From Kiritimatiellota bacterium (lineage in GTDB: Bacteria > Verrucomicrobiota > Kiritimatiellia > Kiritimatiellales > Tichowtungiaceae): a stretch of DNA of 39,894 nucleotides. Under the pieces are notes generated by a model. That model saw only the letters and a program-made list of their open reading frames with translations, was not told where the DNA came from and searched no databases. Positions 1 through 39,894 of the stretch are shown here, one piece after another; within the stretch, counting starts at the first letter, position 1; each line of letters starts with the position of its first letter. A program made the translations under genes and the position numbers. The DNA lies in contig JACNKZ010000082.1 of the NCBI GenBank assembly GCA_014381785.1, forward strand, positions 1-39,894, given 5' to 3'.

Positions 1-59
1 ACCAACGAAGTCAGCTTATTGGTCGCTCCGCTCCCAAACGCTGCTTCGAGACGTTAGCG
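1..59 (+). other. attC-like recombination site (integron cassette boundary)
   Basis: An imperfect hairpin runs from an AAC near base 4 to the GTT at 53-55. The arms contain CGAAGTCAGC and GCTGCTTCG, which pair with one extra unpaired T, and ATTGG pairs with CCAA around a short loop. The layout (AAC, bulged arms, GTT) is that of an integron attC site, and near copies occur at 565-628 and 24640-24702. The left edge is cut by the window start. The call rests on structure and recurrence only. Confidence 0.6.
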
Positions 60-72
60 AGAGATAAAAAAT

Positions 73-561
73 ATGTTCGAAATCATAACCAATAATTTCT
101 GGATAGTCCTCATCGTCGTGACATGCGCCAACGCGGTCTACTTCAAGAAACGTTCACAGGCGAACATTGATGCTGACTCTAGCTTATCCGAGGGATATTC
201 AAAGCTATTCAAGGGATATCTGATCTGGATGAATATCCCATGGGTTGTAATGGGAGTCGGGTGCACCGTTGGAGGAGTTCCATCCGTATGGCATTACTTC
301 AATCCTCAAGATGGGAATCCGTATGTTCTCGCATGGTTTGGGTCTGTATTTCTGTTGTGGATACTTGGAACCTATTGGGTGTTCCTTAAGGGTGGCGCTG
401 AGACATTGGTTCGGCATCCAGGTATAATCAAATTCAACTCACCCCTTGGAAGCAAGGACATCACCAGTCCTCTCATGATTAAGTTGCTGTGGTGTGTATG
501 TTTGCTAGGAGGAATATTTGGAGTGGTATTTATGTGGATCCAAACAACACCAACACCATAA
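73..561 (+). CDS. cassette-borne multi-pass membrane protein of unknown function
   Basis: The 162-residue protein has about four hydrophobic segments: near residues 8-24, 52-72, 84-106 and 136-156. A short charged loop follows the first, and the C-terminus is rich in Thr and Pro. I do not recognise the family. The gene starts 18 bases after the GTT core of one attC-like site and its stop lies just before the next, which is the usual packing of an integron gene cassette. No good Shine-Dalgarno sequence is visible (AGAGATAAAAA precedes the start), again common for cassettes. Base composition is lower in GC than the housekeeping genes of this window. Function cannot be named. Confidence 0.65.
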   Translation: MFEIITNNFWIVLIVVTCANAVYFKKRSQANIDADSSLSEGYSKLFKGYLIWMNIPWVVMGVGCTVGGVPSVWHYFNPQDGNPYVLAWFGSVFLLWILGTYWVFLKGGAETLVRHPGIIKFNSPLGSKDITSPLMIKLLWCVCLLGGIFGVVFMWIQTTPTP

Positions 562-564
562 AAT

Positions 565-628
565 TGCTAACCAGCGAAGTCAGCGTATTGGTCACTCCGT
601 GCCCAAACGCTGCTTCGAGACGTTCGGC
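565..628 (+). other. attC-like recombination site
   Basis: This is the clearest site of the set. AAC is at 569-571 and GTT at 622-624. Arm CGAAGTCAGCG (575-585) pairs with CGCTGCTTCG (608-617), leaving one T unpaired, and TTGG (588-591) pairs with CCAA (603-606) around an 11-base loop. Bulged bases on one arm are a hallmark of attC folding. The site separates two short genes of the same strand. Confidence 0.72.
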
Positions 629-637
629 ACCAAAATT

Positions 638-907
638 ATGACAAAGGATTTTTCATACGAGCCATTTGATAATCTCGTTGCCTCGCTTCGAGAGGACGAT
701 CTGATAAAACAAGCAGATATTCTTCATCACAGGCTGCACGTCGTGGCTTGGACGACACGATCTGAATTGATTCAGGAACTGGCGGAGCGACTCAAGATCA
801 TACAAAAGCAAGAATATAATCGCCTTTCTGAAGCGTCAAAATCACACTTCCTAACCGCCGTCACCATGATCAAAAGAGTTATTCCTGACTTCGATGAAGA
901 CGAATGA
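638..907 (+). CDS. small cassette-borne hypothetical protein
   Basis: The 89-residue soluble protein is acidic at its C-terminus (DFDEDE) and appears mostly helical, with a central segment rich in Glu, Leu and Arg. I recognise no domain. The ATG at 638 is preferred over an upstream in-frame start because it lies directly after the attC-like GTT core at 622, while the longer form would be translated from within the previous gene and the attC stem. The stop is followed by another attC-like hairpin. This is a typical gene-cassette arrangement; function unknown. Confidence 0.6.
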   Translation: MTKDFSYEPFDNLVASLREDDLIKQADILHHRLHVVAWTTRSELIQELAERLKIIQKQEYNRLSEASKSHFLTAVTMIKRVIPDFDEDE

Positions 908-924
908 ATGAAACCAAAAACCAG

Positions 925-985
925 CCGAACCATCGCCTGCACTCTATCGCTCGCAAGCTCGCTCAGAGAGAGGCGTAACGTTCGA
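925..985 (+). other. attC-like recombination site
   Basis: AAC is at 928-930 and GTT at 980-982. CGCCT (934-938) pairs with AGGCG (971-975), and CTCT (942-945) pairs with AGAG (965-968) with unpaired bases between the two blocks. The loop contains the small inverted repeat GCGAGCTTGCGAGC-like sequence. The arms differ from those of the sites at 1 and 565 but match the style of the site at 3335-3426. Confidence 0.6.
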
Positions 986-987
986 TT

Positions 988-1032
988 ATGAAAAAAATAA
1001 TTAAAATTATGTTCGGGTTTGCGGTGTTGGTC
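988..1032 (+). pseudogene. 5' stub of a cassette gene cut by an IS element
   Basis: An ATG six bases after the attC GTT core opens a frame for 15 residues (Met, two Lys, then mostly hydrophobic). It looks like the start of a signal peptide or membrane segment. The frame runs directly into the left end of the IS481-type element. The right flank of that element (from about 2369) could continue a hydrophobic stretch in one frame, but only about 25 bases remain before the next inserted element, so the original gene cannot be rebuilt here. Confidence 0.45.
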
Positions 1033-2368
1033 TGAACCGGGCACATAGGTAACAGATACACCGGGTACATAGGTAACACTTTATAATGAGGCCATGGAGG
1101 TAATTCATGGCCTGGAAAGAAGTGTTAGTTATGGAAGAACGGAGCAGTTTTGTTCTGCTGGCGGAAAAGCATCAGCAGAGTTTTTCGTCGCTGTGTAAAG
1201 AGTACGGGATTAGCCGGAAGACGGGCTATAAATGGGTGGCGCGTTACAAGAAGTATGGGTTGCGCTCCTTGCAGGAGTTTAGCCGCCGTCCGATGAGCTG
1301 TCCGCACAAGACCCCGCTAAAAATCGAGAAGCTGATTTTGCGGGAGCGGCGGAAGCACAAGACATGGGGGCCGAAGAAGTTGCGCGACGTATTGATCAAG
1401 GATCATAAAATTGCGAAACCGCCCGCCGAGAGCACGATTGGCGAGATTCTTAAGCGCAACGGGGTGCCACTCCGGAAACGGCGTAAGCACGGAGTCTTTC
1501 GGCTTCCTTTGCAGGATTTAACGATGCCGGAAGCGGCGAACGATGTTTGGACCGTTGATTTTAAAGGCTGGTTCAGAACCCTCGATGGTGCCCGGTGCGA
1601 CCCGCTGACGGTTATGGATCTGTATAGCCGTTATCTGCTTTGCGCGAAGCTGCTTCTCGGGCAGACGCAACGATCCACCAAGCCGGCGTTTGAGGCCCTG
1701 TTTAAACGGTACGGGCTACCCAAGGTGATTCGGGTAGACAATGGATCTCCTTTTGCATCCGTGGGGATTGGACGATTGTCGGAGCTCAGTACCTGGTGGA
1801 CCCACTTGGGGATTCGAGTGGAATTTATCAAACCAGCCAGCCCTCAAGAAAACGGCGCTCATGAGCGGATGCACGGAACGCTAAAAGCAGAGGTCACTAA
1901 GCCGCCCTCGGCGAATCGTGCTGCTCAGCAACAACGCTTGGATCGTTGGCGCAAAGAGTATAACGAGGAGCGCCCCCATGAGGGTATCGAGATGCAACGC
2001 CCAGCTCAGAGATATCAGAAAAGCCCCAGACGCTTTTCTGGAAAGATCAAGCCTCTGCGTTATCCGCGCCCGATGAAACCGATTCAGGTGAGCAGTTCTG
2101 GGTTCATTTATCTAGAAGGCGCGGCGTGTTTTATCGGTGAAGCTTTATCGGGGAGCCGCCTCGGTCTGAAGGCTCTCGACAGCGGGATTCATGAGGTATA
2201 CTTTGCGGATCGGCTACTTGGAGAATTGCACGATTCAACCCCTGATCGCCTGCGGCCTCTCTATCGACGATCCAAAGGGATCAAAGAGAGATATGAGACA
2301 GGAGTATCATGTTAATCAAAGTGTCACCCATGTACCCGGATAGTTTGTAACCCATGTCCCCGGTCGGA
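1033..2368 (+). mobile_element. IS481-type insertion sequence, apparently complete
   Basis: Each end carries two similar 18-bp blocks spaced 24 bases apart. On the left, CCGGG-ACATAGGTAACA blocks sit at 1037-1054 and 1061-1078. On the right, inverted, matching blocks sit at 2322-2339 and 2346-2363. Between them lies one intact transposase gene. Doubled transposase-binding blocks in terminal inverted repeats of this kind fit the IS481 group of the IS3/rve superfamily. I could not define a clear target duplication, so the exact ends may be off by a few bases. Confidence 0.8.
1107..2315 (+). CDS. IS481-family transposase (DDE integrase)
   Basis: The 402-residue transposase catalyses cut/paste or copy transfer of its element. 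The N-terminus has a helix-turn-helix (about residues 20-55, with the SRKTGYKW motif) and a second DNA-binding region rich in Arg and Lys. The rve catalytic core follows: first Asp in WTVDFKGWF (about residue 151), second Asp in IRVDNGSPF (about 212), and the Glu in QENGAHERMHG (about 250). A basic C-terminal tail completes it. A good GGAGG sits before the ATG. All catalytic residues are present, so the element may be active. It has interrupted an integron-like cassette gene. Confidence 0.9.
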   Translation: MAWKEVLVMEERSSFVLLAEKHQQSFSSLCKEYGISRKTGYKWVARYKKYGLRSLQEFSRRPMSCPHKTPLKIEKLILRERRKHKTWGPKKLRDVLIKDHKIAKPPAESTIGEILKRNGVPLRKRRKHGVFRLPLQDLTMPEAANDVWTVDFKGWFRTLDGARCDPLTVMDLYSRYLLCAKLLLGQTQRSTKPAFEALFKRYGLPKVIRVDNGSPFASVGIGRLSELSTWWTHLGIRVEFIKPASPQENGAHERMHGTLKAEVTKPPSANRAAQQQRLDRWRKEYNEERPHEGIEMQRPAQRYQKSPRRFSGKIKPLRYPRPMKPIQVSSSGFIYLEGAACFIGEALSGSRLGLKALDSGIHEVYFADRLLGELHDSTPDRLRPLYRRSKGIKERYETGVSC

Positions 2369-2394
2369 CAGTTGCTCATAGCATTGGCGCGAAA

Positions 2395-2818
2395 GGGGTC
2401 AGTCCTTGAATTCTGACATTTCGAGTTGATCCTCCTTTTCGAGTCTGATTATATCCCCTCATGGCCAGACCTCTCAGAGTTCAATTCCCCGGAGCAGTTT
2501 ATCACGTGATGTGTCGGGGAAATCGTCAGGAGCCGATTTTTAAAAACCGGGGGGATCACGATCTTTTCCTCACAACACTGGGTGAAACCTGTCTGCGGTG
2601 CGGGTGGCGGGTACACGCCTATGTTCTAATGGGGAACCACTACCATCTTCTGCTAGAAACACCAGAAGCTAATCTCGTGGATGGCATGCGCTGGTTTCAG
2701 GGCGTTTATACGCAGCGGTTTAATGCTCGTCATAAGGTTTGGGGACATCTTTTCCAAGGGCGATACAAAGCGTTATTTGAACTAAAATCTAAAATGTCAG
2801 AATTCAAGGACTGACCCC
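2395..2818 (+). mobile_element. Y1 (REP-type) transposase unit with 27-bp perfect terminal inverted repeats, internally deleted
   Basis: The 27 bases at 2395-2421 (starting GGGGTCAGTCCTTGAATT) are the exact reverse complement of 2792-2818. They bracket a 5' fragment of a REP-associated tyrosine transposase gene. The right repeat overlaps the end of the truncated reading frame, so the last residues are encoded by the repeat itself. The unit lies directly against an IS110-type remnant on its right and follows the IS481 element on its left, showing nested insertions. Confidence 0.75.
2461..2814 (+). pseudogene. truncated REP-associated tyrosine (Y1/HUH) transposase
   Basis: The N-terminus MARPLRVQFPGAVYHVMCRG is the standard start of RAYT/Y1_Tnp proteins. 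The HUH metal site is present in MGNHYHLLLETP (about residues 57-68), and the FQGRYKA segment follows at about 97-103. Family members usually run to about 200-300 residues; this frame stops at 117, before the conserved tyrosine helix and NP-rich segment expected after RYKA. The missing part was replaced by the right terminal repeat. The fragment cannot be catalytically complete. Confidence 0.8.
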
Positions 2819-2921
2819 ACCCGTACTTCTCACCGTTGTAAAAAGCCAGTACCCATTTGCTGTTGCTCAGCTCCATGGCAACGAGTAATTTATCAGCGCT
2901 ATGTACAGGGTTGTTTGTCAT
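2819..2921 (-). pseudogene. 5' remnant of an IS110-type transposase gene
   Basis: On the minus strand, AGGAGACATAG precedes an ATG at 2921. The encoded residues (LLVAMELSNSKWVLAF) resemble the N-terminal RuvC-like strand of IS110-family DEDD transposases. About 34 residues remain before the frame enters the inverted end of the REP-type unit at 2818. The rest of the transposase is absent. The family call is from memory of the N-terminal pattern. Confidence 0.5.
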
Positions 2922-2984
2922 TCTATGTCTCCTTTGTTTTTGGTGATTCGAAGGATTGTACCGTGGTAAATCAACCCCTACATA

Positions 2985-3047
2985 GCATCTACGTGATGAC
3001 CCGCTCGGCAATTAAGTTGAAGCACAAGGCATGAGGGTCCTTTCGAA
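2985..3047 (+). other. possible degraded attC-like site
   Basis: The stretch ends in TCCTTTCGAACGTTGGCTGCC, and GACCC (near 2998) can pair with GGGTC (near 3028). The core AACGTTGG followed at once by a small gene on the same strand fits a cassette boundary. The left arm is poor, perhaps because of the adjacent IS110 remnant. A similar core (TTTCAAACGTTGGTTGC, minus strand) lies near the right end of the window. Confidence 0.35.
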
Positions 3048-3069
3048 CGTTGGCTGCCGAAAGGAGATT

Positions 3070-3327
3070 ATGAAAAAAGGAAATCCACATCTTAAAGCAG
3101 CATTCCTCGAAGCAGTCGATAATCAACTGGCGGACAATGATCCACCGGAAACCAAAGAAACACTCGACCGACTGATAGGCCAAGGCATGTCGGAAGACGA
3201 CGCCAAGATTTACATCGCACAAGCTGTCAGCGTTGAGGTTTTTGACATTATGAAACACCAAAAGGAATTCAACCTGGATCGATATTTAAAGAATCTAAAG
3301 CGACTTCCTGATGAGCCGGAATTATAA
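3070..3327 (+). CDS. small conserved acidic protein, cassette-like position
   Basis: The 85-residue protein contains a recognisable pattern: NQLxxNDPPETKETLDRL, then GMSEDDAKIYIAQAVSVEVFDIMK, then a C-terminal RYLKNLKRLP. I have seen this pattern in small bacterial proteins of unknown function but cannot name a Pfam family with certainty. The ATG at 3070 has a strong AAAGGAGATT ahead of it and is preferred to an upstream in-frame ATG. The gene is bracketed by a degraded attC-like core and a clear attC-like hairpin at 3335, so it was probably carried as a cassette. Confidence 0.65.
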   Translation: MKKGNPHLKAAFLEAVDNQLADNDPPETKETLDRLIGQGMSEDDAKIYIAQAVSVEVFDIMKHQKEFNLDRYLKNLKRLPDEPEL

Positions 3328-3334
3328 AAACTGA

Positions 3335-3426
3335 GCCAACAATCGCTTTCACTCTATCGCAGGCTCCCGTCTTCGCTAAAGCTACGCCGGACAGGCCGCC
3401 CGCTCAGAGTGACGCGAGACGTTCGA
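3335..3426 (+). other. attC-like recombination site with long loop
   Basis: AAC is at 3338-3340 and GTT at 3421-3423. TCGC (3343-3346) pairs with GCGA (3414-3417), and TCACTCT (3349-3355) pairs exactly with AGAGTGA (3406-3412), leaving unequal unpaired bases between the blocks. The roughly 50-base loop contains CTTCGCTAAAGCTACGCCGG, a sequence seen in variant form at two other places in the window. Length and bulges recall the longer attC sites of chromosomal integrons. Confidence 0.65.
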
Positions 3427-3447
3427 CACGATGAAGAAAGGAGCAAC

Positions 3448-4428
3448 ATGAATACGCGACTATTCGGGGAAAAGAATCTCAGCATTGGCGAGGTGGGCCT
3501 TGGTTGCTGGCAGTTCGGAGGAGATTTTGGAGACATGGAGGAAAATACTGCCCTCGCCATCATGGCGGCGGCCGTTGATAACGGTGTCACTTTTTTCGAT
3601 ACTGCAGACGTCTACGGCACAGGCAAAAGCGAGGAGCTCATCGGGCGTTTTCTGAAGCAATGCGCCCTTCCCATCACAGTGGCAACTAAGTTCGGTCGAG
3701 GCGGTGATGTATATCCCGACAAATACACGGAGGAAGCATTGCGTCGGTCCGTCGCCGCCTCAGCACGCAGACTGGGTGTAGAAATGATTGATCTGCTCCA
3801 ACTGCACTGCATTCCCATAGAGGTACTCCGCGCCGGTGATGTGTTCACCTGGCTCCGCCGTTTGAAACAGGATGGCCTCATCAAAAATTTCGGCGCGAGT
3901 GTTGAAACTGTGGAGGAGGCTCTCATTTGTCTAGAACAGGAAGACCTGTTATCTCTACAGGTGATCTTCAATATCTTCAGACAGAAACTCGTTACTGAGT
4001 TGCTCCCGCAAGCAAACGCACGTGGCGTTGGAATCATCGTACGACTTCCCCTGGCCAGCGGACTACTGGCTGGAAAATTCACTAAAGACACCACGTTTGC
4101 GCCCACAGACCACAGGAACTACAATAAGGACGGTCAATGTTTCAACGTGGGAGAAACCTTCGCCGGATTGCCTTTTGAGAAAGGTGTCGAGTTAGTCGAG
4201 ATGATGAAAGAGATGCTTCCTGACGGAATGACGATGGCTCAAATGGCACTGCGCTGGATTCTTGATCATGATGAAGTGTCCGTCGTAATCCCCGGAGCCA
4301 GTTCTCCGGAACAGGCCAAGGCTAATGCCGCTGTCTCGGATCTCGCCCCATTGCCCGACACGTTGCATAAGTGCCTGAGAGATTTCTACAATCAACATGT
4401 ACGTGACTGCATTCGAGGGCCCTATTGA
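3448..4428 (+). CDS. aldo/keto reductase, cassette-borne
   Basis: This NAD(P)H-dependent aldo/keto reductase has 326 residues. The TIM-barrel signature is intact: GLGCWQFGG near the start, the catalytic Asp/Tyr in FFDTADVYGTGKSEELIG (about residues 49-66), a Lys in ATKFGRGG, a His in LLQLHC, and the C-terminal cofactor loop VVIPGASSPEQAKANA. The substrate is unknown; the family reduces aldehydes, ketones or sugars. The start follows AAAGGAGCAAC. The gene is preceded by an attC-like site and followed by what looks like the right half of another, so it appears to be the last cassette of the group. A paralogue begins 171 bases downstream. Confidence 0.85.
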   Translation: MNTRLFGEKNLSIGEVGLGCWQFGGDFGDMEENTALAIMAAAVDNGVTFFDTADVYGTGKSEELIGRFLKQCALPITVATKFGRGGDVYPDKYTEEALRRSVAASARRLGVEMIDLLQLHCIPIEVLRAGDVFTWLRRLKQDGLIKNFGASVETVEEALICLEQEDLLSLQVIFNIFRQKLVTELLPQANARGVGIIVRLPLASGLLAGKFTKDTTFAPTDHRNYNKDGQCFNVGETFAGLPFEKGVELVEMMKEMLPDGMTMAQMALRWILDHDEVSVVIPGASSPEQAKANAAVSDLAPLPDTLHKCLRDFYNQHVRDCIRGPY

Positions 4429-4440
4429 GATGTTGAACAA

Positions 4441-4472
4441 GGCCGGCCGCTCAGAGTGACGCGTGGCGTTCC
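4441..4472 (+). other. right half of an attC-like site (left half lost)
   Basis: GGCCGCTCAGAGTGACGCG followed by a GCGTT core closely matches the right arm of the attC-like site at 3335-3426. No matching left arm is seen between the aldo/keto reductase stop and this point. The GTT core runs straight into the first of two dispersed palindromes. Confidence 0.4.
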
Positions 4473-11747: not shown

Positions 11748-11840
11748 TTTTTTCCAACCATTGGAAGTTTTCAGATCATTTTTTCCAATGCTTGGAAAAA
11801 ATATGCGCCGCAACGCAGTTGCTTTCCAAGCACTGAAACC
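11748..11840. repeat. cluster of three dispersed palindromes after nfo
   Basis: Perfect copies lie at 11752-11766 (centre CCA) and 11783-11797 (centre TGC); the latter extends to eight-base arms with flanking T and A runs. A two-mismatch copy lies at 11824-11838. The cluster sits between the convergent nfo and thiF genes. The stems are AT-rich, so strong terminator activity is unlikely though possible. Confidence 0.85.
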
Positions 11841-12115: not shown

Positions 12116-12922
12116 TCAGTCGACGATGAGCCGGAGGGCGAGGTTGGCCTGCATAGAGGCGGCAATGCCGACGCGCGGAGCCATCAGCCCGCAGCCGGGC
12201 TGTGCGCCGGTTTCGAGGTCGCCGACAATGTAAATGTTTTTGCCGAGCGATTTAATGCCGATGGTTTCGCCGGAGGCGTATCCGGCCACGCCGGATGCTC
12301 CGATAAAGGGCGTGTCCGGTTTTTCCGCAGTGAAAGCCTGCAGGAGCATCGCTTTCTGATCCGCGCGGTCAAACGCTTCGATCATCACATCGGTTTTTCC
12401 AAAGGTTGGAAAAATATTATCCGCGGTGAGTTTCACGGCGTGCGCCTCGACCTCTACATAGGGGTTGATTTTCCGAAGGTTGGAAACCAGTGCTTCTGTT
12501 TTGAGCATTCCGATCTGATCGATAAAATACTGCTGGCGATTGAGGTTGCTCGGCTCGACCACATCAAAGTCGGCGACAATCAGCTTGCCGATGCCTACAC
12601 GCGCAAGGGCGCCGGCAATGGCGGAGCCCAGTCCGCCGAGCCCGGCGATACCGACGGTGGCGGCTTTGAGTTTGGCATGAACGCCCGGCGTGTGACGCGC
12701 GGCCATCAGTCCTTCGAGTTCTTTTTCCGAAGGGACTTCGCCGCGGGTAATCAAAGAAACCTCGTCGCCATCGGTGAGCGGCGCATCGGCATTCATCGCC
12801 GCGCCGTTAAGAATCAGTATATCCGCCGCAGGGCGAAGACGATCTCGCAGGGTAAACAGGGTTTCCCCCGGCAAAAGCTCAACCGGAACTTCGTTGAGGC
12901 GGATGTTCACGGGAATTACCAC
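12116..12922 (-). CDS. thiF: ThiS-like/ThiF fusion: sulfur carrier adenylyltransferase
   Basis: This E1-like enzyme has 268 residues and is expected to adenylate the C-terminus of a sulfur-carrier protein for thiamine thiazole synthesis. Residues about 1-65 form a ThiS-like ubiquitin-fold domain. The adenylating domain follows with VGIAGLGGLGSAIAGALAR (ATP loop) and the strongly conserved VEPSNLNRQQYF and GLMAPRVG. It matches the family-2 ThiF proteins seen in clostridia and related anaerobes. The GTG start overlaps the lptE stop by 7 bases; a second GTG at 12910 is also possible. Two dispersed palindromes lie inside the gene; one encodes FPTFGK (about residue 172). Confidence 0.85.
   Translation of the reverse strand: MVIPVNIRLNEVPVELLPGETLFTLRDRLRPAADILILNGAAMNADAPLTDGDEVSLITRGEVPSEKELEGLMAARHTPGVHAKLKAATVGIAGLGGLGSAIAGALARVGIGKLIVADFDVVEPSNLNRQQYFIDQIGMLKTEALVSNLRKINPYVEVEAHAVKLTADNIFPTFGKTDVMIEAFDRADQKAMLLQAFTAEKPDTPFIGASGVAGYASGETIGIKSLGKNIYIVGDLETGAQPGCGLMAPRVGIAASMQANLALRLIVD
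12397..12411. repeat. dispersed palindrome inside thiF
   Basis: A perfect TTCCAA-AGG-TTGGAA lies here, extended by further T and A bases to nine-base arms. Read on the gene strand it encodes F-P-T-F-G-K. Against my memory of related ThiF proteins the local length is unchanged, so the motif appears to replace rather than lengthen the protein. Confidence 0.9.
12471..12485. repeat. one-mismatch dispersed palindrome inside thiF
   Basis: TTCCGA-AGG-TTGGAA encodes part of S-N-L-R-K. These residues fit the conserved family sequence before INPYVEVEAH, so this copy may be a chance near-match preserved by protein constraint. Confidence 0.6.
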
Positions 12923-21582: not shown

Positions 21583-22767
21583 ATGAAAAAACTCATTCTG
21601 CCCAAGGGATTCTCCGCGGCCGGTATTGCGGCGGGGATCAAGCCGAAAAAGAAAAAGGACATGGCGCTGATCGTGTCGGATGCCCCGTCGGTCACAGCCG
21701 GAGTGTTCACCACCAACCAGATCAAAGCCGCTCCGGTGAAATGGGACATTCAGGTGGTCGAACACAACCGCTCGCGGGCGATTGTGATGAACAGCGGAGT
21801 CGCCAACGCCTGCACCGGCACACAAGGCGAGACCGACACGCAGGCCATGGCCGCACTAACCGCCAGCCCGCTTGGCGTGGAAGCAGCCGATGTGTTTGTC
21901 TGCTCCACCGGCACCATCGGTAAATTCCTGCCGATGGATAAAATATTCAACGGAATCGAGAAGTTATATAAACACCTTTCCCCAGACAACGGACTGGACG
22001 CCGCCGAAGCGATGATGACCACCGATCTGGTTCCCAAAAGCCTGACGGTTGAAATTGAAATCGGCGGCAAGCCGGTTCGGCTCACCGGTCTCGCCAAAGG
22101 CTCCGGCATGATTGAACCGAATATGGCCACCATGCTCGCCTTCATTCTAACCGATGCCAAAGTGGAAAAACACGCCCTGCAATGCGCCCTGAGGGCCGCG
22201 ACCGACACCAGCTTCAACCGTATCAGCGTCGACGGCGACCAAAGCACCAACGACAGCGTCATCGCACTGGCCAACGGCATGGCCGGCAATGACGTGCTGA
22301 CACAGGACTCGGCCGACTGGGGTCTGTTTTTCCAAACCTTGGAAAAAATGCTTTTTGAACTGGCGATGATGATCGTACGCGACGGCGAAGGCGCCACCAA
22401 ACTGGTCACCGTCCGGGTGATCGGCGCCGGATCCAACGGCGAAGCCAACGAAGCCGCGCGGGCGGTGGCCAACTCCATGCTCAACAAAACCGCCTGGGCG
22501 GGAAAACGGCCCAACTGGGGACGGATCATGGATGCCATCGGCTACTCGCACGCCCAGGTGCAGGAAAACCGCGTCGACATCACTTATGATGAAGTTCCGC
22601 TGGTGCGCGGCGGCATGGCCTACCCCGGAGCCTCCATCGACGATGCGATCGCCGTGGTTGCAAAAGACGCATTTACTATTCATATCAACTTAAATCTCGG
22701 CGGCGGCGAAGCGGTGGTCTACACCTGCGACTGCACCGAAGAGTACGTACGGATCAATGTTGAGTAG
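21583..22767 (+). CDS. argJ: bifunctional ornithine acetyltransferase / N-acetylglutamate synthase
   Basis: The 394-residue enzyme recycles the acetyl group between acetylornithine and glutamate in arginine synthesis. Family blocks are MNSGVANACTGTQG, STGTIGKFLPMD, MMTTDLVPK, GLAKGSGMIEPNMATMLAFI (self-cleavage before Thr of ATML gives alpha and beta chains), SVDGDQSTNDS and KTAWAGKRPNWGRIMDAIGYS. The ATG at 21583 starts directly with KKLILPKGF; the longer frame overlaps the rpsI terminator. A perfect dispersed palindrome inside the beta chain encodes FQTLEK. It is the first of an interrupted arg cluster argJ-argB-argD. Confidence 0.94.
   Translation: MKKLILPKGFSAAGIAAGIKPKKKKDMALIVSDAPSVTAGVFTTNQIKAAPVKWDIQVVEHNRSRAIVMNSGVANACTGTQGETDTQAMAALTASPLGVEAADVFVCSTGTIGKFLPMDKIFNGIEKLYKHLSPDNGLDAAEAMMTTDLVPKSLTVEIEIGGKPVRLTGLAKGSGMIEPNMATMLAFILTDAKVEKHALQCALRAATDTSFNRISVDGDQSTNDSVIALANGMAGNDVLTQDSADWGLFFQTLEKMLFELAMMIVRDGEGATKLVTVRVIGAGSNGEANEAARAVANSMLNKTAWAGKRPNWGRIMDAIGYSHAQVQENRVDITYDEVPLVRGGMAYPGASIDDAIAVVAKDAFTIHINLNLGGGEAVVYTCDCTEEYVRINVE
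22330..22344. repeat. dispersed palindrome inside argJ
   Basis: A perfect TTCCAA-ACC-TTGGAA lies here with flanking T and A bases, giving ten-base arms overall. It encodes F-F-Q-T-L-E-K-M in the loop after the conserved catalytic block. Confidence 0.9.
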
Positions 22768-22921: not shown

Positions 22922-23794
22922 ATGCAGCAAATGATTGAAAAAGCAGCCGTTCTGGTCGAAGCCCTTCCCTACATCCAGAAATTCCGGGGCGACACCATCG
23001 TCGTCAAATTCGGCGGCAGCATCATGGAAAGCGAAATCGGCTACCGGAATATCCTGAAAGATGTCGCCTTTATGGAATGCGTCGGCCTGCGGCCCGTCCT
23101 GGTACATGGTGGCGGCAAATCCGTTTCTAAAAAAATGCGCGAAGCGCACATCCAGCCCACGTTTCTGCACGGCCTGCGGGTGACCGACGGAGAATCGATC
23201 AAAGTGGTCGAAAGCGTCCTCAACGGCGAAGTGAACCCCCATCTGGTGGAAATTCTCGCCAACTACGGCGGCAAAGCCCGCGGCATCCACGGCGAAGACA
23301 TCATTAAGGTGAAAAAACACACCGGGATCGATCCGGACACCGGGATGGAGCTCGACTGGGGATTCGTCGGCAAAGTGATTGACGTCGACGTGGAGCCGAT
23401 TGTCGCCTTCCTCAATGCGGATATCATTCCGGTCATCACTCCGCTCGGACGCGGCGAAGACGGACAGCTTTATAACGTCAACGCCGACGACGTCGCCAAT
23501 GCCGTCGCGCAGGCGCTGCAGGCGCGCAAACTGGTGTTCCTCAGCGACGTACCCGGACTGCTGAAAGATCCGGACGACAAAACGTCACTCATCACCAGCC
23601 TCGCAACTGGCGAAGCGGAAGACCTGATCGCCCGCGGCATCATTGCCGGGGGTATGCTGCCGAAAATTCAGGGAGCGGTCGACGCGCTCAAAGCGGGCGT
23701 CAACAAAGTCCATCTGATCGACTCCGCCCTGCCGCACTCTCTGCTGCTCGAACTCTTCACCGACCGAGGCGTCGGCACCGAGATCGTGCACTGA
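22922..23794 (+). CDS. argB: acetylglutamate kinase
   Basis: The 290-residue kinase phosphorylates N-acetylglutamate. The amino-acid-kinase fold is clear: FRGDTIVVKFGGSIM (ATP site Lys and glycine loop), RPVLVHGGGKSVSKKM, GLRVTDGESIKVVESVLNGEVN, NADDVANAVAQALQARKLVFLSDVPGLL, and GGMLPKIQGAVDALKAGVNKVHLID. The N-terminal helix (MQQMIEKAAVLVEALPYIQKF) is of the type that builds arginine-inhibited hexamers, so feedback inhibition by arginine is likely (inference). Confidence 0.96.
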   Translation: MQQMIEKAAVLVEALPYIQKFRGDTIVVKFGGSIMESEIGYRNILKDVAFMECVGLRPVLVHGGGKSVSKKMREAHIQPTFLHGLRVTDGESIKVVESVLNGEVNPHLVEILANYGGKARGIHGEDIIKVKKHTGIDPDTGMELDWGFVGKVIDVDVEPIVAFLNADIIPVITPLGRGEDGQLYNVNADDVANAVAQALQARKLVFLSDVPGLLKDPDDKTSLITSLATGEAEDLIARGIIAGGMLPKIQGAVDALKAGVNKVHLIDSALPHSLLLELFTDRGVGTEIVH

Positions 23795-24227
23795 GAATCA
23801 GGAATCAGGGGTCAGACATAGCATCATTTGATGCTATCGGTCTGTTTCTCAACATATGCAAATTAAACCGGCATGAAACATAGGCAGAATGATTTAAAGG
23901 CAGAATGATGACTTGTTCAGTTGCAGTTGGCTGTAAAAATTATTCTGCCTAAAAATGCGCCCGCACCCGATTGTTTTTCCATCCGCCTTCGTGCCACTTC
24001 CTCCTTCGCTAAAGCTACGGCGGGACAAAACGGCGCGACAGGAGGTTTGGAACTTTTCACAGAAGGGAACGAAGTCAACGAAGGGACTGCCTCCGTTATC
24101 CTTTGTTTCCTTCTGTTTAAATCAGCAGTGCAAGGATTGGAACACATCCGTCGCCCCAACAAACGACAGCCCGCTTTTATTGGACTTTCTAATTGTTGTG
24201 AAAAATATCCGGCATTAGGCTGACTTC
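23795..24227. repeat. gene-free stretch packed with short repeats after argB
   Basis: In order: a GAATCAGGAATCAGGGGTCA stretch; a perfect 20-base palindrome ATAGCATCATTTGATGCTAT at 23818-23837, possibly a weak terminator; two direct copies of GGCAGAATGAT (near 23883 and 23898) and an inverted ATTATTCTGCC (near 23938); a CTTCGCTAAAGCTACGGCGG element near 24004; and GGGAACGAAGTCAACGAAGG near 24064. No credible gene is seen. It resembles a landing zone for repeat elements beside the lone cassette gene. Confidence 0.55.
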
Positions 24228-24266
24228 AAATTCCGTTACAAAGCGTCATAACGCTCATTAAACGTT
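24228..24266 (+). other. attC-like core before the solitary cassette gene
   Basis: AGCGT (24242-24246) pairs with ACGCT (24251-24255), and an AAACGTTCG core (GTT at 24264-24266) ends three bases before the ATG of the next gene. The same core and spacing occur before the cassette frame at 988. The left arm is weak, so this may be a partial site. Confidence 0.4.
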
Positions 24267-24268
24267 CG

Positions 24269-24637
24269 ATGAATAAAATGAAAAAAATAATTACCATCCT
24301 CAGCGTTGTTGGAGTTTTCATCAGTTGCGTTTACGCAGATGAACAAAACACAGTTATTCTCTCCAAATACGTTAACAAAACCTACCAGGAGATGTTGGAG
24401 GAGCTTGGTGCTCCGGTTGATAAAACTGGATACACAATTGAACATGCACCTACCAAAGGCTGGAATCATTCTGAGCTGTTTTCAAAGTATCCAAAAACTG
24501 AAGAGAACAAAAACATCCAGATTATGGAAGTTACGTGGAGTACAGAGAACGAAATGACTTTGGCCTGTTTCCACACGGTCGATGGAACCAACCGCTGCCT
24601 TGTGGCAAAGCGAATGAAAAAAGAAATACGACATTAA
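24269..24637 (+). CDS. secreted cassette-like hypothetical protein
   Basis: The 122-residue protein has a signal peptide (MKKIITILSVVGVFISCVYA, cleavage after about residue 24). The mature domain has YVNKTYQEMLEELGAPVDKTGY and, later, LACFHTVDGTNRCLVAKRM. This recalls small exported proteins with an SmpA/DUF-like sequence of linking sheet and helix, but I cannot assign a family. It sits alone between argB and argD, bracketed by attC-like sequences; the one after it is nearly the same as the attC-like site at 565. It has lower GC than the arg genes. It was probably gained as a gene cassette. Confidence 0.6.
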   Translation: MNKMKKIITILSVVGVFISCVYADEQNTVILSKYVNKTYQEMLEELGAPVDKTGYTIEHAPTKGWNHSELFSKYPKTEENKNIQIMEVTWSTENEMTLACFHTVDGTNRCLVAKRMKKEIRH

Positions 24638-24639
24638 CA

Positions 24640-24702
24640 TCGAACCAGCGAAGTCAGCTTATCGGCCACTCCGTGCCCGAACGCTAATCCGGGACGTTCC
24701 TT
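24640..24702 (+). other. solitary attC-like site between argB and argD
   Basis: AAC is at 24643-24645 and GTT at 24696-24698. The left arm CCAGCGAAGTCAGC and the ACTCCGTGCCC loop are nearly identical to those at 571-602. TCGG (24662-24665) pairs with CCGA (24677-24680), and AGC pairs with GCT. The right arm (CTAATCCGGG) has diverged from CTGCTTCGAG, weakening the outer stem. The match over 24 kb shows a shared origin with the cassette region at the window start. Confidence 0.6.
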
Positions 24703-24784
24703 AACCCGCCGTTACCCTGCTACTTAAAACATTGGCACGAATCGTCTTATGCGGTATGTTTCCGCGCTTTTGATGGAGAAAACA

Positions 24785-25972
24785 ATGAATGCCGCAGACA
24801 TTGCAGAGATGCAGAAAACCTATTTAATTCCGACCTATGCGCCGCAACTGGCGCTGGTGAAGGGTTCCGGCACAAAGGTGTGGGATGCCGAGGGGAACGA
24901 ATATCTCGATTTCCTCGCCGGGATCGCTGTGCTCAACGTCGGTCATTGCCATCCGAATGTGGTGAAGGCCATTCAGGATCAGGCGGCAACCCTGATGCAT
25001 GTTTCCAACCTCTACTACAACGAAAAGCAGCCGCAGCTCGCCAAGGCACTGGCCGAAAAAGCCGGCGGCGGCAAATGCTTTTTCTGCAACTCCGGCGCGG
25101 AAGCCAACGAAGGGCTGATCAAACTGGCGCGGCTGTGGGGCTCCGACAAAGGCAAATTTAAAGTCATTACGATGAAAAACTCGTTTCATGGCCGGACGCT
25201 GGCGACCCTGACCGCCACCGGACAGGAAAAGGTGCAGAAGGGGTTCGCCCCCCTGCCCGAAGGATTCGCCTACGCCGAATTCAACAATCTCGATTCCGTC
25301 AAAGCGGCGATCACCGAACAGACCGCCGCAGTGCTCGTTGAAGCCGTCCAAGGCGAAGGCGGCATCATTCCCGCCGACCCGGAGTTTATCAGCGGCCTGC
25401 GGGCGCTGTGCGACGAAAAGGATATCCTGCTGATGTTCGACGAAGTGCAGGCAGGCGTTGGCCGGACCGGTAAATGGTTCAGCTTCCAGCACTATGATGT
25501 GCAACCGGATGCCTTCTCGCTGGCCAAAGGCCTCGGTAACGGTTTCCCAATCGGCGCGCTGGTTGCCGCGCCGAAGCTGGCAAACATCTTCCAGCCGGGT
25601 CACCACGCCACCACCTTCGGCGGCACCCCGCTGGCTTGCGCCGCCGCACTGGCTGTGCTCGAAACCATCGAGCAGGAAAAGCTGCTCGAAAATGCCGCCG
25701 CGATGGGCGAGTTGCTTTTGAACAAACTGCAGGCGATTGCCGAGCAGTACGACTGGATTGAGGGCGCGCGGGGCTGCGGCCTAATGGTCGGCCTCGTTCT
25801 GAACGACAGCGCCCTTCCCTTGCAGAAAAAACTGCAGGAAAAAGGACTGCTCACCCTCGCCACCGCCGTGCGGGTGCTGCGGATGCTTCCGCCGCTGACT
25901 GTTACCACCGAAGAAATTGAACAAGCCGTAGCTTGGATTGCCGAAGCCTGCGCAGAACTGGATACCCAATGA
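24785..25972 (+). CDS. argD: acetylornithine aminotransferase
   Basis: The 395-residue PLP enzyme transaminates N-acetylglutamate semialdehyde in arginine synthesis. It shows YLDFLAGIAVLNVGHCHPNV, FFCNSGAEANEGLIKLAR, SFHGRTLATLTATGQ, LLMFDEVQAGVGRTGKW, the PLP lysine in FSLAKGLGNGFPIGA and TTFGGTPLACAAALAVL. The ATG at 24785 follows TGGAGAAAACA and is preferred to an upstream in-frame ATG that begins inside the spacer. Its stop overlaps the next start (ATGA), so it is coupled to the pseudouridine synthase gene. Confidence 0.93.
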   Translation: MNAADIAEMQKTYLIPTYAPQLALVKGSGTKVWDAEGNEYLDFLAGIAVLNVGHCHPNVVKAIQDQAATLMHVSNLYYNEKQPQLAKALAEKAGGGKCFFCNSGAEANEGLIKLARLWGSDKGKFKVITMKNSFHGRTLATLTATGQEKVQKGFAPLPEGFAYAEFNNLDSVKAAITEQTAAVLVEAVQGEGGIIPADPEFISGLRALCDEKDILLMFDEVQAGVGRTGKWFSFQHYDVQPDAFSLAKGLGNGFPIGALVAAPKLANIFQPGHHATTFGGTPLACAAALAVLETIEQEKLLENAAAMGELLLNKLQAIAEQYDWIEGARGCGLMVGLVLNDSALPLQKKLQEKGLLTLATAVRVLRMLPPLTVTTEEIEQAVAWIAEACAELDTQ

Positions 25973-35220: not shown

Positions 35221-36521
35221 TCTTCCCCCAACTTAAACCACAAAACGCGAACGGAGGTCGCGTCGCCCTCATTTCTATACGCCAACAGCCCTTTCAGTAA
35301 AGACCATTCAGAACGGTTCGTATCCGGCTCCTTCTCGCTGTGCCAGGCGAACCATAGGATATCTTTTTTGGTCACGCCGTCCGCATGGGTTCGCTTGTAG
35401 AGCGTCCACAGGGGGGTCCAGTTGCGCTCGAGCGGCGCCACATTACTGATCGGCCAAAGCTCCAGCATCCGGAAACGCGACAGATCCCCTGTCCGCTGCC
35501 AGCTCATCAGCGGCCAGATTTTCCAACCTTTGGAAACAACGGTCCACTCCTCTTCCGGGCGGTCGGTTTCGCGAAGGCGCTTCTCTTCAAAATAGAAAAA
35601 CGGAAGGGCCTTTTTGCGGGAAACGGCTTGATGCGCCTGTTGAAATTTATCCGACCACAGCAACGGCCAGAGCACAAACGTGCGGTCGACCATCCCGTCG
35701 CCAATCTGCTTGCGGCCCCACAGCGGCCAGACATACAGCTTATCCAGGCTCTCGCTCTTCACTTTCTGAAAGAAGGGCCACGGACAGAAAATCCGGTCCT
35801 GACGCTCGCCGTGCGTAAACCGGAAGAACGGCGGAATGACCCACCATGTGCTTTCCTTCTTCAGATTGCCCCGCCCGCAAATCGGAAACAGAATCCAGGA
35901 AGTACCGGAATCGCCGGGATAAAAATATTCAGCGGAGGTCCAAAACGGCCAGAGCACAAACCGTTTCTCGTATTTACCCTCCAGCACCGATTTTCCAATG
36001 ATTGGAAAAACGCGGTCGCGCTGAATGCCGTCGCCGCGCGTATGGGAATAAATCGGCCAGAGCACACTGGTGGTCTTCACCTCATTGATCTGCGATTTTC
36101 CAAAGATTGGAAAAAGCACAAACGAAATGGTATCGCGCCCAAAAAACTCATGAATGGTTCCGCCCAGCGGGAAGAGCGCGAAGTACGACTCGTCATTTTT
36201 GTCCCGCCCTTGGAAATAGAACGGAAGCAGCCAGTTGCGGTCGCGCGGCGACTCCGCGTCCGCCGCGAAATTATGCGTCCACCAAAATGTCAGCGCGCGC
36301 GAGGTCTGCTCGTTCTTGAACTCCTTGCGGGAATAGAGCGGCCACAGAAAGTCCTGAACCTGTCCCTCCTCCCCCACCGTCTTCGAATAAAACGGACGCA
36401 CCGCGAAGAACGAACCCTCGTCCGTCTGCACATGTTCATAGACGGGATACACGCCGCCGAAAGCGGCCGTGCCGCACAGCACCGCCACCATCAAACTCAA
36501 GATAAAGTCCGTTCGCATCAT
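35217..36521 (-). CDS. exported WP-repeat protein of unknown function, first gene of the Mla operon
   Basis: The 434-residue protein has a signal peptide (RTDFILSLMVAVLCGTAAFGG) and then at least ten degenerate repeats of about 30 residues, each with a core such as FLWPLYSR, LFPIFGKS, VLWPIYSH, VLWPFWTS, YVWPLWGR or VLWPLLWS, separated by charged turns. The alternating aromatic and beta-strand pattern suggests a beta-solenoid, beta-propeller or outer-membrane barrel. I know no named family. It overlaps mlaE by 4 bases, so it may be the outer-membrane or periplasmic partner missing from this Mla system (inference). Three dispersed palindromes lie inside; two encode FPI-I/F-GKS within repeats. 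The ATG at 36521 was preferred to an earlier one because it opens on the signal peptide. Confidence 0.65.
   Translation of the reverse strand: MMRTDFILSLMVAVLCGTAAFGGVYPVYEHVQTDEGSFFAVRPFYSKTVGEEGQVQDFLWPLYSRKEFKNEQTSRALTFWWTHNFAADAESPRDRNWLLPFYFQGRDKNDESYFALFPLGGTIHEFFGRDTISFVLFPIFGKSQINEVKTTSVLWPIYSHTRGDGIQRDRVFPIIGKSVLEGKYEKRFVLWPFWTSAEYFYPGDSGTSWILFPICGRGNLKKESTWWVIPPFFRFTHGERQDRIFCPWPFFQKVKSESLDKLYVWPLWGRKQIGDGMVDRTFVLWPLLWSDKFQQAHQAVSRKKALPFFYFEEKRLRETDRPEEEWTVVSKGWKIWPLMSWQRTGDLSRFRMLELWPISNVAPLERNWTPLWTLYKRTHADGVTKKDILWFAWHSEKEPDTNRSEWSLLKGLLAYRNEGDATSVRVLWFKLGEE
35521..35535. repeat. dispersed palindrome in the WP-repeat gene
   Basis: A perfect TTCCAA-CCT-TTGGAA encodes S-K-G-W-K, the third reading frame of the motif. 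Confidence 0.88.
35993..36007. repeat. dispersed palindrome in the WP-repeat gene
   Basis: A perfect TTCCAA-TGA-TTGGAA with outer T and A runs encodes F-P-I-I-G-K inside one protein repeat. Confidence 0.9.
36098..36112. repeat. dispersed palindrome in the WP-repeat gene
   Basis: A perfect TTCCAA-AGA-TTGGAA encodes F-P-I-F-G-K at the matching place of the neighbouring protein repeat, 105 bases from the previous copy, so these two may have been duplicated with the protein repeat. Confidence 0.9.
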
Positions 36522-39700: not shown

Positions 39701-39894
39701 AAAAAATATCTCCCGTCGGGAAGTGTCTCTGCGTTTAGAGATCCGATACCAATCAGGAGGAGTGTGGCGATTATGTTTGGTTTCATATTTATCTGCAACC
39801 AACGTTTGAAAGGAGCGTCGGGTGTAGTCCGTAAGCTCGCTTGATTTGATACTCATCTAAGCCCTTCGGTAAGGGCGGTTAAATCCTTAAGTTA
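39701..39894 (-). other. possible reversed cassette boundary and start of a secreted ORF
   Basis: On the minus strand, an attC-like core CTTTCAAACGTTGGTTGC (near 39812-39795) is followed by an ATG at 39786. That frame encodes a plausible signal peptide (MKPNIIATLLLIGIGSLNAE) and then runs on about 40 residues into the antisense of cutA. AAGGGC and GCCCTT near 39858-39875 form a small hairpin. A TCCCGTCGGGA hairpin lies near 39714. It may be a cassette truncated when it met cutA, but the evidence is thin. Confidence 0.3.

Follow-up and report, generated by a model that had tools for sequence, protein, structure and literature searches.

A lone integron cassette between argB and argD in a Kiritimatiellota genome, and other cassettes at the same junction in related species

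How did a small gene of low GC content come to lie between two arginine biosynthesis genes of an uncultured Kiritimatiellota bacterium? The window analysed here is the whole of one contig (C88; 39,894 nucleotides) from an assembly (G000) of 88 contigs and 2.2 Mb, and its open reading frames and Pfam matches give the gene order argJ, argB, argD, pseudouridine synthase. The acetylglutamate kinase gene argB (22922–23794, + strand; Pfam AA_kinase, E = 1.9e-46) has a match in 39 of the 40 genomes searched, its own included, and the acetylornithine aminotransferase gene argD (24785–25972, + strand; Pfam Aminotran_3, E = 1.5e-119) is matched once per genome (E≤1e-60) throughout the 14 genomes of the genus. 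The stop codon of argB ends at 23794 and the ATG of argD is at 24785, leaving a gap of 990 bp that consists of a low-GC spacer of ~470 bp, a unit of 432 bp and a leader of 88 bp. The GC content of the unit is 42.8%, against 58.2% for argB and 58.9% for argD, confirming that a small low-GC gene sits here as the original prediction had it. That prediction also held that the gene splits an otherwise continuous argJ-argB-argD set. The cassette is present, but it is not the sole cause of the split, as the ~470 bp of other DNA and the argD leader also intervene; nor is a split peculiar to this insert, since seven relatives have argB and argD apart, two of them with cassettes in between.

The unit can be delimited as an integron cassette of 432 bp (24265–24696, + strand) whose edges are set by G|TT at either end, which corrects the limits of 24228–24702 first proposed. 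Its left junction is the R′ box of the cassette itself, G|TTCGAT (24264–24270, + strand), the exact reverse complement of the R′′ box ATCGAAC at 24639–24645 (7/7 positions). A cassette is inserted between the G and the TT, such that its own R′ lies at the left edge whilst the R′ of the right edge is derived from the target. The right edge here reads GTTCCTT and is thus target-supplied; the outer stem had been called decayed because R′′ was paired with this wrong partner, and that part of the claimed drift is withdrawn, R′′ being the reverse complement of the left R′. In the 3.5 kb upstream of R′′ there is one 7/7 partner (at 24264) and no rival at 6/7. The + strand of the window has two copies of GTTCGAT, one within a cassette array (980) and one at 24264; with both strands counted there are five, from which we calculate a chance of ~5% that a copy would fall between argB and the attC. 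Across 44 of 51 attC matches examined for R′′/R′ partners, 20 have an upstream 7/7 partner against 5.9 expected with scrambled boxes, 10 of the 44 being without a proper AAC or GTT box yet kept. The seven left out (window 1–59, L136 1–59, L124 467, L106 12712, L138 1714, L133 802 and L121 2171) had cut ends, an odd strand or were weak.

The right end of the cassette is an attC-type site (24639–24702, + strand), comprising the R′′ box, hairpin arms and loop, and the right GTT (24696–24698), with a diverged inner right arm. An ad hoc scanner for AAC/GTT arms was too noisy (62 and 63 matches on the two strands of the window against 32 on one shuffled strand) and a covariance model was adopted in its place. 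This model, R1, was made from eight array attC sites, six from the integron of a relative (G009) and two from the array of the window (565–628 and 924–986), and its training set holds no argB-argD site. In the R1 structure 89.6% of cells are paired, falling to 30–37% when partners are slid, and none of 500 shuffles reached its covariation score. Eleven of its 18 stem pairs change on both sides (27/500 shuffles as high); the number of further pair types was not above that of shuffles (485/500 as high). Two other covariance models, R2 and R3, were made from three sequences apiece and are weak tools. The lone site scored 51 bits against R1, with an E value of 1.2e-10 over 166 kb and 1.6e-9 at whole-genome scale. 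Over 18 sources of the argB/argD region (166 kb, window included) R1 gave seven matches, of which four lie in the left array of the window, one is the lone site, and the remaining two are in the argB-argD gaps of G008 and G007.

The near equality of this site with that at 565–628, noted in the original prediction, was borne out, as its first 43 nt are 90.7% identical to 569–611; moreover, 24644–24698 is 80% identical to 1–55 (repeat family D2). Drift was likewise evident in the inner right arm, where changes on the 3′ side have abolished stem pairs 13-51, 15-49 and 17-48. The bottom strand, folded as single-stranded DNA, gave −11.7 kcal/mol (z = −1.7; 14/200 shuffles as good), compared with −17.1 kcal/mol (z = −5.0) for the array site at 565 and −14.6 kcal/mol (z = −3.1) for an array site of G009. 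The lone attC is recognisable but drifted, with a weakened hairpin, and as its right arm has presumably mutated since insertion, re-excision is probably weak. The next attC detected on the left is ~21 kb away, and that on the right ~15 kb.

A single ORF (24278–24637, + strand) fills the cassette, encoding 119 aa from the ATG at 24278 or 122 aa from 24269. It is oriented towards the attC and ends 1 nt short of R′′ at 24639, a compact arrangement as in integron gene cassettes. By eye, the N-terminus of the protein resembles a signal peptide. No Pfam family was matched at E≤0.1, and the best matches in PHROGs (E = 0.087) and NCBIfam (E = 0.026) are weak; a structure model (AlphaFold, without alignment) reached a pLDDT of 38.9 and is unusable. 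Searches with the ORF gave nothing at E≤0.01 among the other 13 genomes of the genus, and in a 387-genome sample of the phylum the protein is without a match at E≤0.001 outside its own genome (386 others). A search of 43 genomes of the order returned three weak partial matches (E = 0.0024–0.0086) in another family.

Integron integrases were sought with TIGR02249 across the genus, and C88 has no integrase-family match. As all 14 control genomes gave matches to this model, none of them over the cut-off (265 bits), only matches over the cut-off were counted. Such matches occur in 8 of the 14 genomes of the genus, G007 and G008 not being among them. The integron integrase of the own genome scores 439 bits on contig C68, which stops just upstream of intI so that the own attI is not fully assembled, and three more matches of 388–403 bits are on C10, C2 and C66. 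In G009, which is a single contig, intI is adjoined by an array of the same attC families with at least 12 recognisable attC sites. Open frames of 424–481 aa, far over the integron-integrase cut-off, are found in G009 (G009:C1:536355-537290 and 2638673-2639608, two copies of equal score with attC-type sites ~1–4 kb away) as well as on C10, C2 and C66 of G000; these long integrase-like frames are perhaps a mobile relative of IntI.

Other cassette DNA is present on the window contig. An array at its left end (1–3427, + strand) contains five attC sites by R1 and R2, at 1–59 (truncated), 565–628, 924–986, 2969–3055 and 3334–3427. A transposase gene with IS481-type domains (1107–2315) appears to interrupt the array cassette starting at 980, the start of which, GTTCGAT...ATGAAAAAAATAATTA, resembles that of the lone cassette by eye. 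An aldo/keto reductase ORF (3409–4428; Pfam E = 1.8e-59) starts at the attC at 3334–3427, another attC-like right arm lies near 4440–4465 (repeat D4), and the reductase is apparently a metabolic enzyme in a cassette. At the right end an attC-type site of a second family (39797–39854, − strand; R2 31.6 bits, E = 2.3e-8) is succeeded by the opening part of a small ORF of secreted type, so that cassette DNA borders C88 on either side. A comparison of the window array with the locus that holds the array of G010 (L143), made to test for common placement, gave no match. The window also has 11 copies of a dispersed palindrome-like motif, TTTTCCAA-N-TTGGAAAA (repeat family D1; e.g. 11776–11800, 12390–12414, 22323–22347 and 36091–36115).

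The left flank of the cassette (23795–24263, + strand) is low in GC and contains no attC. The original prediction had placed a partial attC-like core here, but R1 gave only 5.2 bits (E = 1.1) and the element in question is the cassette's own R′ box. Two stretches of 47–49 bp (84–89%) recur on contig C2 of the same genome (locus L062), and beyond these two short pieces the flank has no match among the fetched loci. None of the genomes gave an empty site flanked by these sequences. The stretch from argB to the cassette includes a terminator-like hairpin (23818–23837), one of five in the region against 3.0 expected. On the other side, comparison of flanks places the argD leader at 24697–24784 (+ strand), opening with the TT of the target site. 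A pattern scan identified a sigma-70-like promoter in this leader, TTGGCA-17-TATGTT (24732–24760, + strand), the sole such match in the window against 0.01 expected, and a longer form of the pattern has one match in the own genome. The sequence TGCGGTATGTT, which in the window is part of this promoter-like element, precedes argD in six of the eight genomes that have the two genes separated, and G007 and G008 have a variant of it. By a simple scan the only promoter-like sites on the + strand are at 23400 (inside argB) and 24732, and therefore the cassette gene would depend, if transcribed at all, on read-through from argJ-argB; the hairpin at 23818 speaks against such read-through. Since the promoter-like site of argD is downstream of the cassette, the insertion need not harm arginine synthesis.

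The junction was compared in relatives, as the original prediction had advised. In 6 of the 14 genomes of the genus (G002, G003, G004, G005, G010 and G013) the two genes adjoin, no more than 13 nt separating argB from argD. In five they are apart on one contig (G000, 990 bp; G006, 1.7 kb; G007, 2.9 kb; G008, 0.55 kb; G011, 3.0 kb), in G009 they are ~53 kb apart, and in G001 and G012 they are on different contigs with other genes before argD. Elsewhere in the order, 17 of 19 outgroup loci tabulated have a gap of 4–124 nt and two have gaps of 413 and 416 nt. The gaps of G006 and G011 hold unrelated insertions without a detected attC. By eye, the ~3 kb of the G011 gap (L097) contain toxin-antitoxin-like pairs and a methyltransferase-like gene, and R1, R2 and R3 found no attC in it. 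Taken together, abutting genes in six relatives, a gene without a match in the genus and clean G|TT edges are in keeping with an insertion; the contrary picture, of gene and flanks present in all relatives and unassociated with attC, was not found.

G007 and G008 each have a single cassette between argB and argD, different from that of the window and with an attC-type site of its own. The G007 cassette encodes an AccI-type endonuclease (Pfam E = 1.3e-115) and an N6 methylase, a whole AccI-type restriction-modification pair in one 2.7-kb cassette (L054 5981–8630, − strand), in which the reading frame of the methylase extends into the attC and terminates close to the right end of that site. That of G008 encodes an 87-aa protein with a match to DUF1270 below threshold only. 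The G008 site is the clearer of the two (R1 28.3 bits, E = 1.2e-4; fold −17.9 kcal/mol, z = −3.3). The G007 site is weak (R1 19.6 bits, E = 0.026) and folds no better than shuffles (−10.6 kcal/mol, z = −0.05, 91/200), so its designation as an attC draws mainly on boxes and arms. R′′ and R′ match at 7/7 positions in G007 and 6/7 in G008, and the sites in all three gaps are oriented like argB. G007 and G008 have a common right flank as far as the GTT, which stands 106 and 107 nt, respectively, ahead of the argD start codon (z = 21 over the whole and 3.5 over the first 32 nt), whilst their left flanks are unlike (z = 1.3). The right flank of the window is more distant (z = 5.7 and 3.7 against G007 and G008 over the whole; 1.9 and 0.5 over the first 32 nt), and for this reason insertion at the same base cannot be claimed; its left flank matches neither that of G007 (z = −0.1) nor that of G008 (z = 0.0). 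The left flank of G007 ends in CACTTTTGACGTT, which by eye resembles the end of a long G009 attC, and that of G008 ends in AATAACACTGTT, the last 12 letters of an attI-like 20-mer found beside other cassettes of the clade. This rare 20-mer, GTAAGGCTAATAACACTGTT, occurs at six places in the 14 genomes at ≤3 mismatches (reversed control, 0), among them L175 (G007 C3:537060), L177 (G008 C27:38703) and L180 (G007 C4:48296). It forms the left end of two lone G007 cassettes and in G008 lies ~1 kb before attC sites; at the other three places R1 has no match in the fetched locus.

What, then, placed the cassette here? The G|TT edges, the matching boxes and the attC at E = 1.2e-10 argue, as the original prediction did, for a single cassette inserted at a secondary site by an integron integrase, the target being a non-integron, attG-like GTT behind argB. 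In such an event the attC of a circular cassette, its bottom strand folded, would have undergone recombination with a GTT lying in the spacer that separates argB from the promoter-like leader of argD. We give this reading a probability of about 0.7, held at that level by the hairpin at 23818, the poor fold in G007, the G007 and G008 sites being absent from the matches listed by the whole-genome R1 search, and the share that falls to a remnant of a larger array. In the latter case several cassettes would once have stood between argB and argD, all but one since lost by excision or deletion. Sites are indeed scattered through the genus, R1 giving at least 93 in 14 genomes, in at least 61 clusters (8-kb link) and at least 44 of them single, although this last figure overstates true loners because short contigs hold many of the sites and the attCs that R1 detects are mainly short ones. 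Moreover, the common right flank of G007 and G008 up to the GTT, with different cassettes, looks as if an ancestral site had been restocked, and the end of the G007 left flank (CACTTTTGACGTT) is like that of a long attC. However, R1 found no second attC in the left flank of the window, and R2 and R3 (three sequences each) reported none in its gap. A remnant is possible but unlikely; it would leave the same scar as insertion in one step at an attG site, and the latter is preferred. It is highly improbable that the gene was there originally, or came in by some other kind of recombination, next to an attC-like site that is coincidental or a passively carried repeat. The attC is imperfect and the gaps of G006 and G011 show that insertions without a detected attC do occur, but the E value of the site, the exact R′/R′′ match at the 5′ edge of the ORF and the want of a genus match to the gene all count against chance.

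Insertion at an attG-like site leaves a separate matter, that of junction reuse. Each of three species has its own, different cassette at this one junction, and a small three-gene tree, in which G006 is represented almost only by argD, puts G000 in one clade and G007 with G008 in another. This could mean that integron cassettes of the genus dock time and again at the argB-argD junction, the integrase placing different ones behind the arg operon, where they could be co-transcribed with argJ-argB whilst argD is shielded by its own promoter, but we regard this as doubtful. We think it fairly probable that, given a promoter of its own for argD, the gap just tolerates insertions and is filled by ordinary attG events without target preference, an explanation that is compatible with attG insertion and concerns only the reuse. 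The occurrence of the three cassettes in two clades counts against it. In its favour, 8 of the 14 genomes have argB and argD apart, the material between them in G006 and G011 being unrelated, and among the fetched loci other neighbourhoods too have attC sites in two or more genomes. Furthermore, by our own estimate at least 44 isolated sites over ~2,000 junctions (assumed) would give ~0.5 pairwise coincidences, and so two independent insertions at one junction are not remarkable. G007 and G008 may also share one ancestral occupied site. The reuse of one junction by different cassettes could thus be explained by chance or common ancestry, and given also the other reused flank pairs, a hotspot is a lead rather than a result.

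Cassettes outside integrons have precedents. Loot et al. reportedly found in 2024 that integron cassettes were inserted into bacterial genomes at attG sites, and, to go by the titles, Recchia and Hall in 1995 and Segal and Elisha in 1997 are said to have dealt with single cassettes at secondary sites in plasmids. The plasmid cases, again by their titles, share with ours the precise insertion of one cassette, whereas the cassette described here is chromosomal, in a biosynthetic gene cluster, and does not carry a resistance gene. Passages of PMC12901181 and PMC12444791 describe attG insertion of cassettes, the latter with insertions broadly distributed over numerous loci of E. coli, and PMC10127599 reports off-target recombination by integrase at secondary sites that resemble GTT. 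As in attG insertions, our cassette is outside an integron, has no left attC and is joined at GTT; it differs in being natural, with a drifted attC and in an uncultured genome of Kiritimatiellales type, and in that related species of the genus hold other cassettes at this gene junction. The locus also resembles a SALIN, as defined in a passage of PMC12690207, in that one isolated attC and its gene (next sites ~21 and ~15 kb off) have no integrase match on their contig, but its edges and R′/R′′ pair are readable and an integrase is encoded elsewhere in the genome. The chromosomal integron of G009 (L106/L107) has attC families as in the window (92% over 50 nt for the attC at L106 17445–17396) and differs from the lone cassette in its array of at least 12 sites beside intI.

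Literature combining integron, attC and Verrucomicrobi* exists, and a passage of PMC8618304 names Verrucomicrobiota among the phyla with integrons. A search found no paper joining integron, cassettes and Kiritimatiell*, and for attC, integron and Pontiella there was no mention of Pontiella among the matches listed. Cassette insertion outside integrons is already known and the window holds a further natural case, one with readable edges in an uncultured lineage and with two more cassettes at the same junction in related species. Were the junction a docking place, it would be a small expression outpost away from attI. The locus therefore offers a concrete place to ask whether such insertions favour preferred, expressed and harmless spots.
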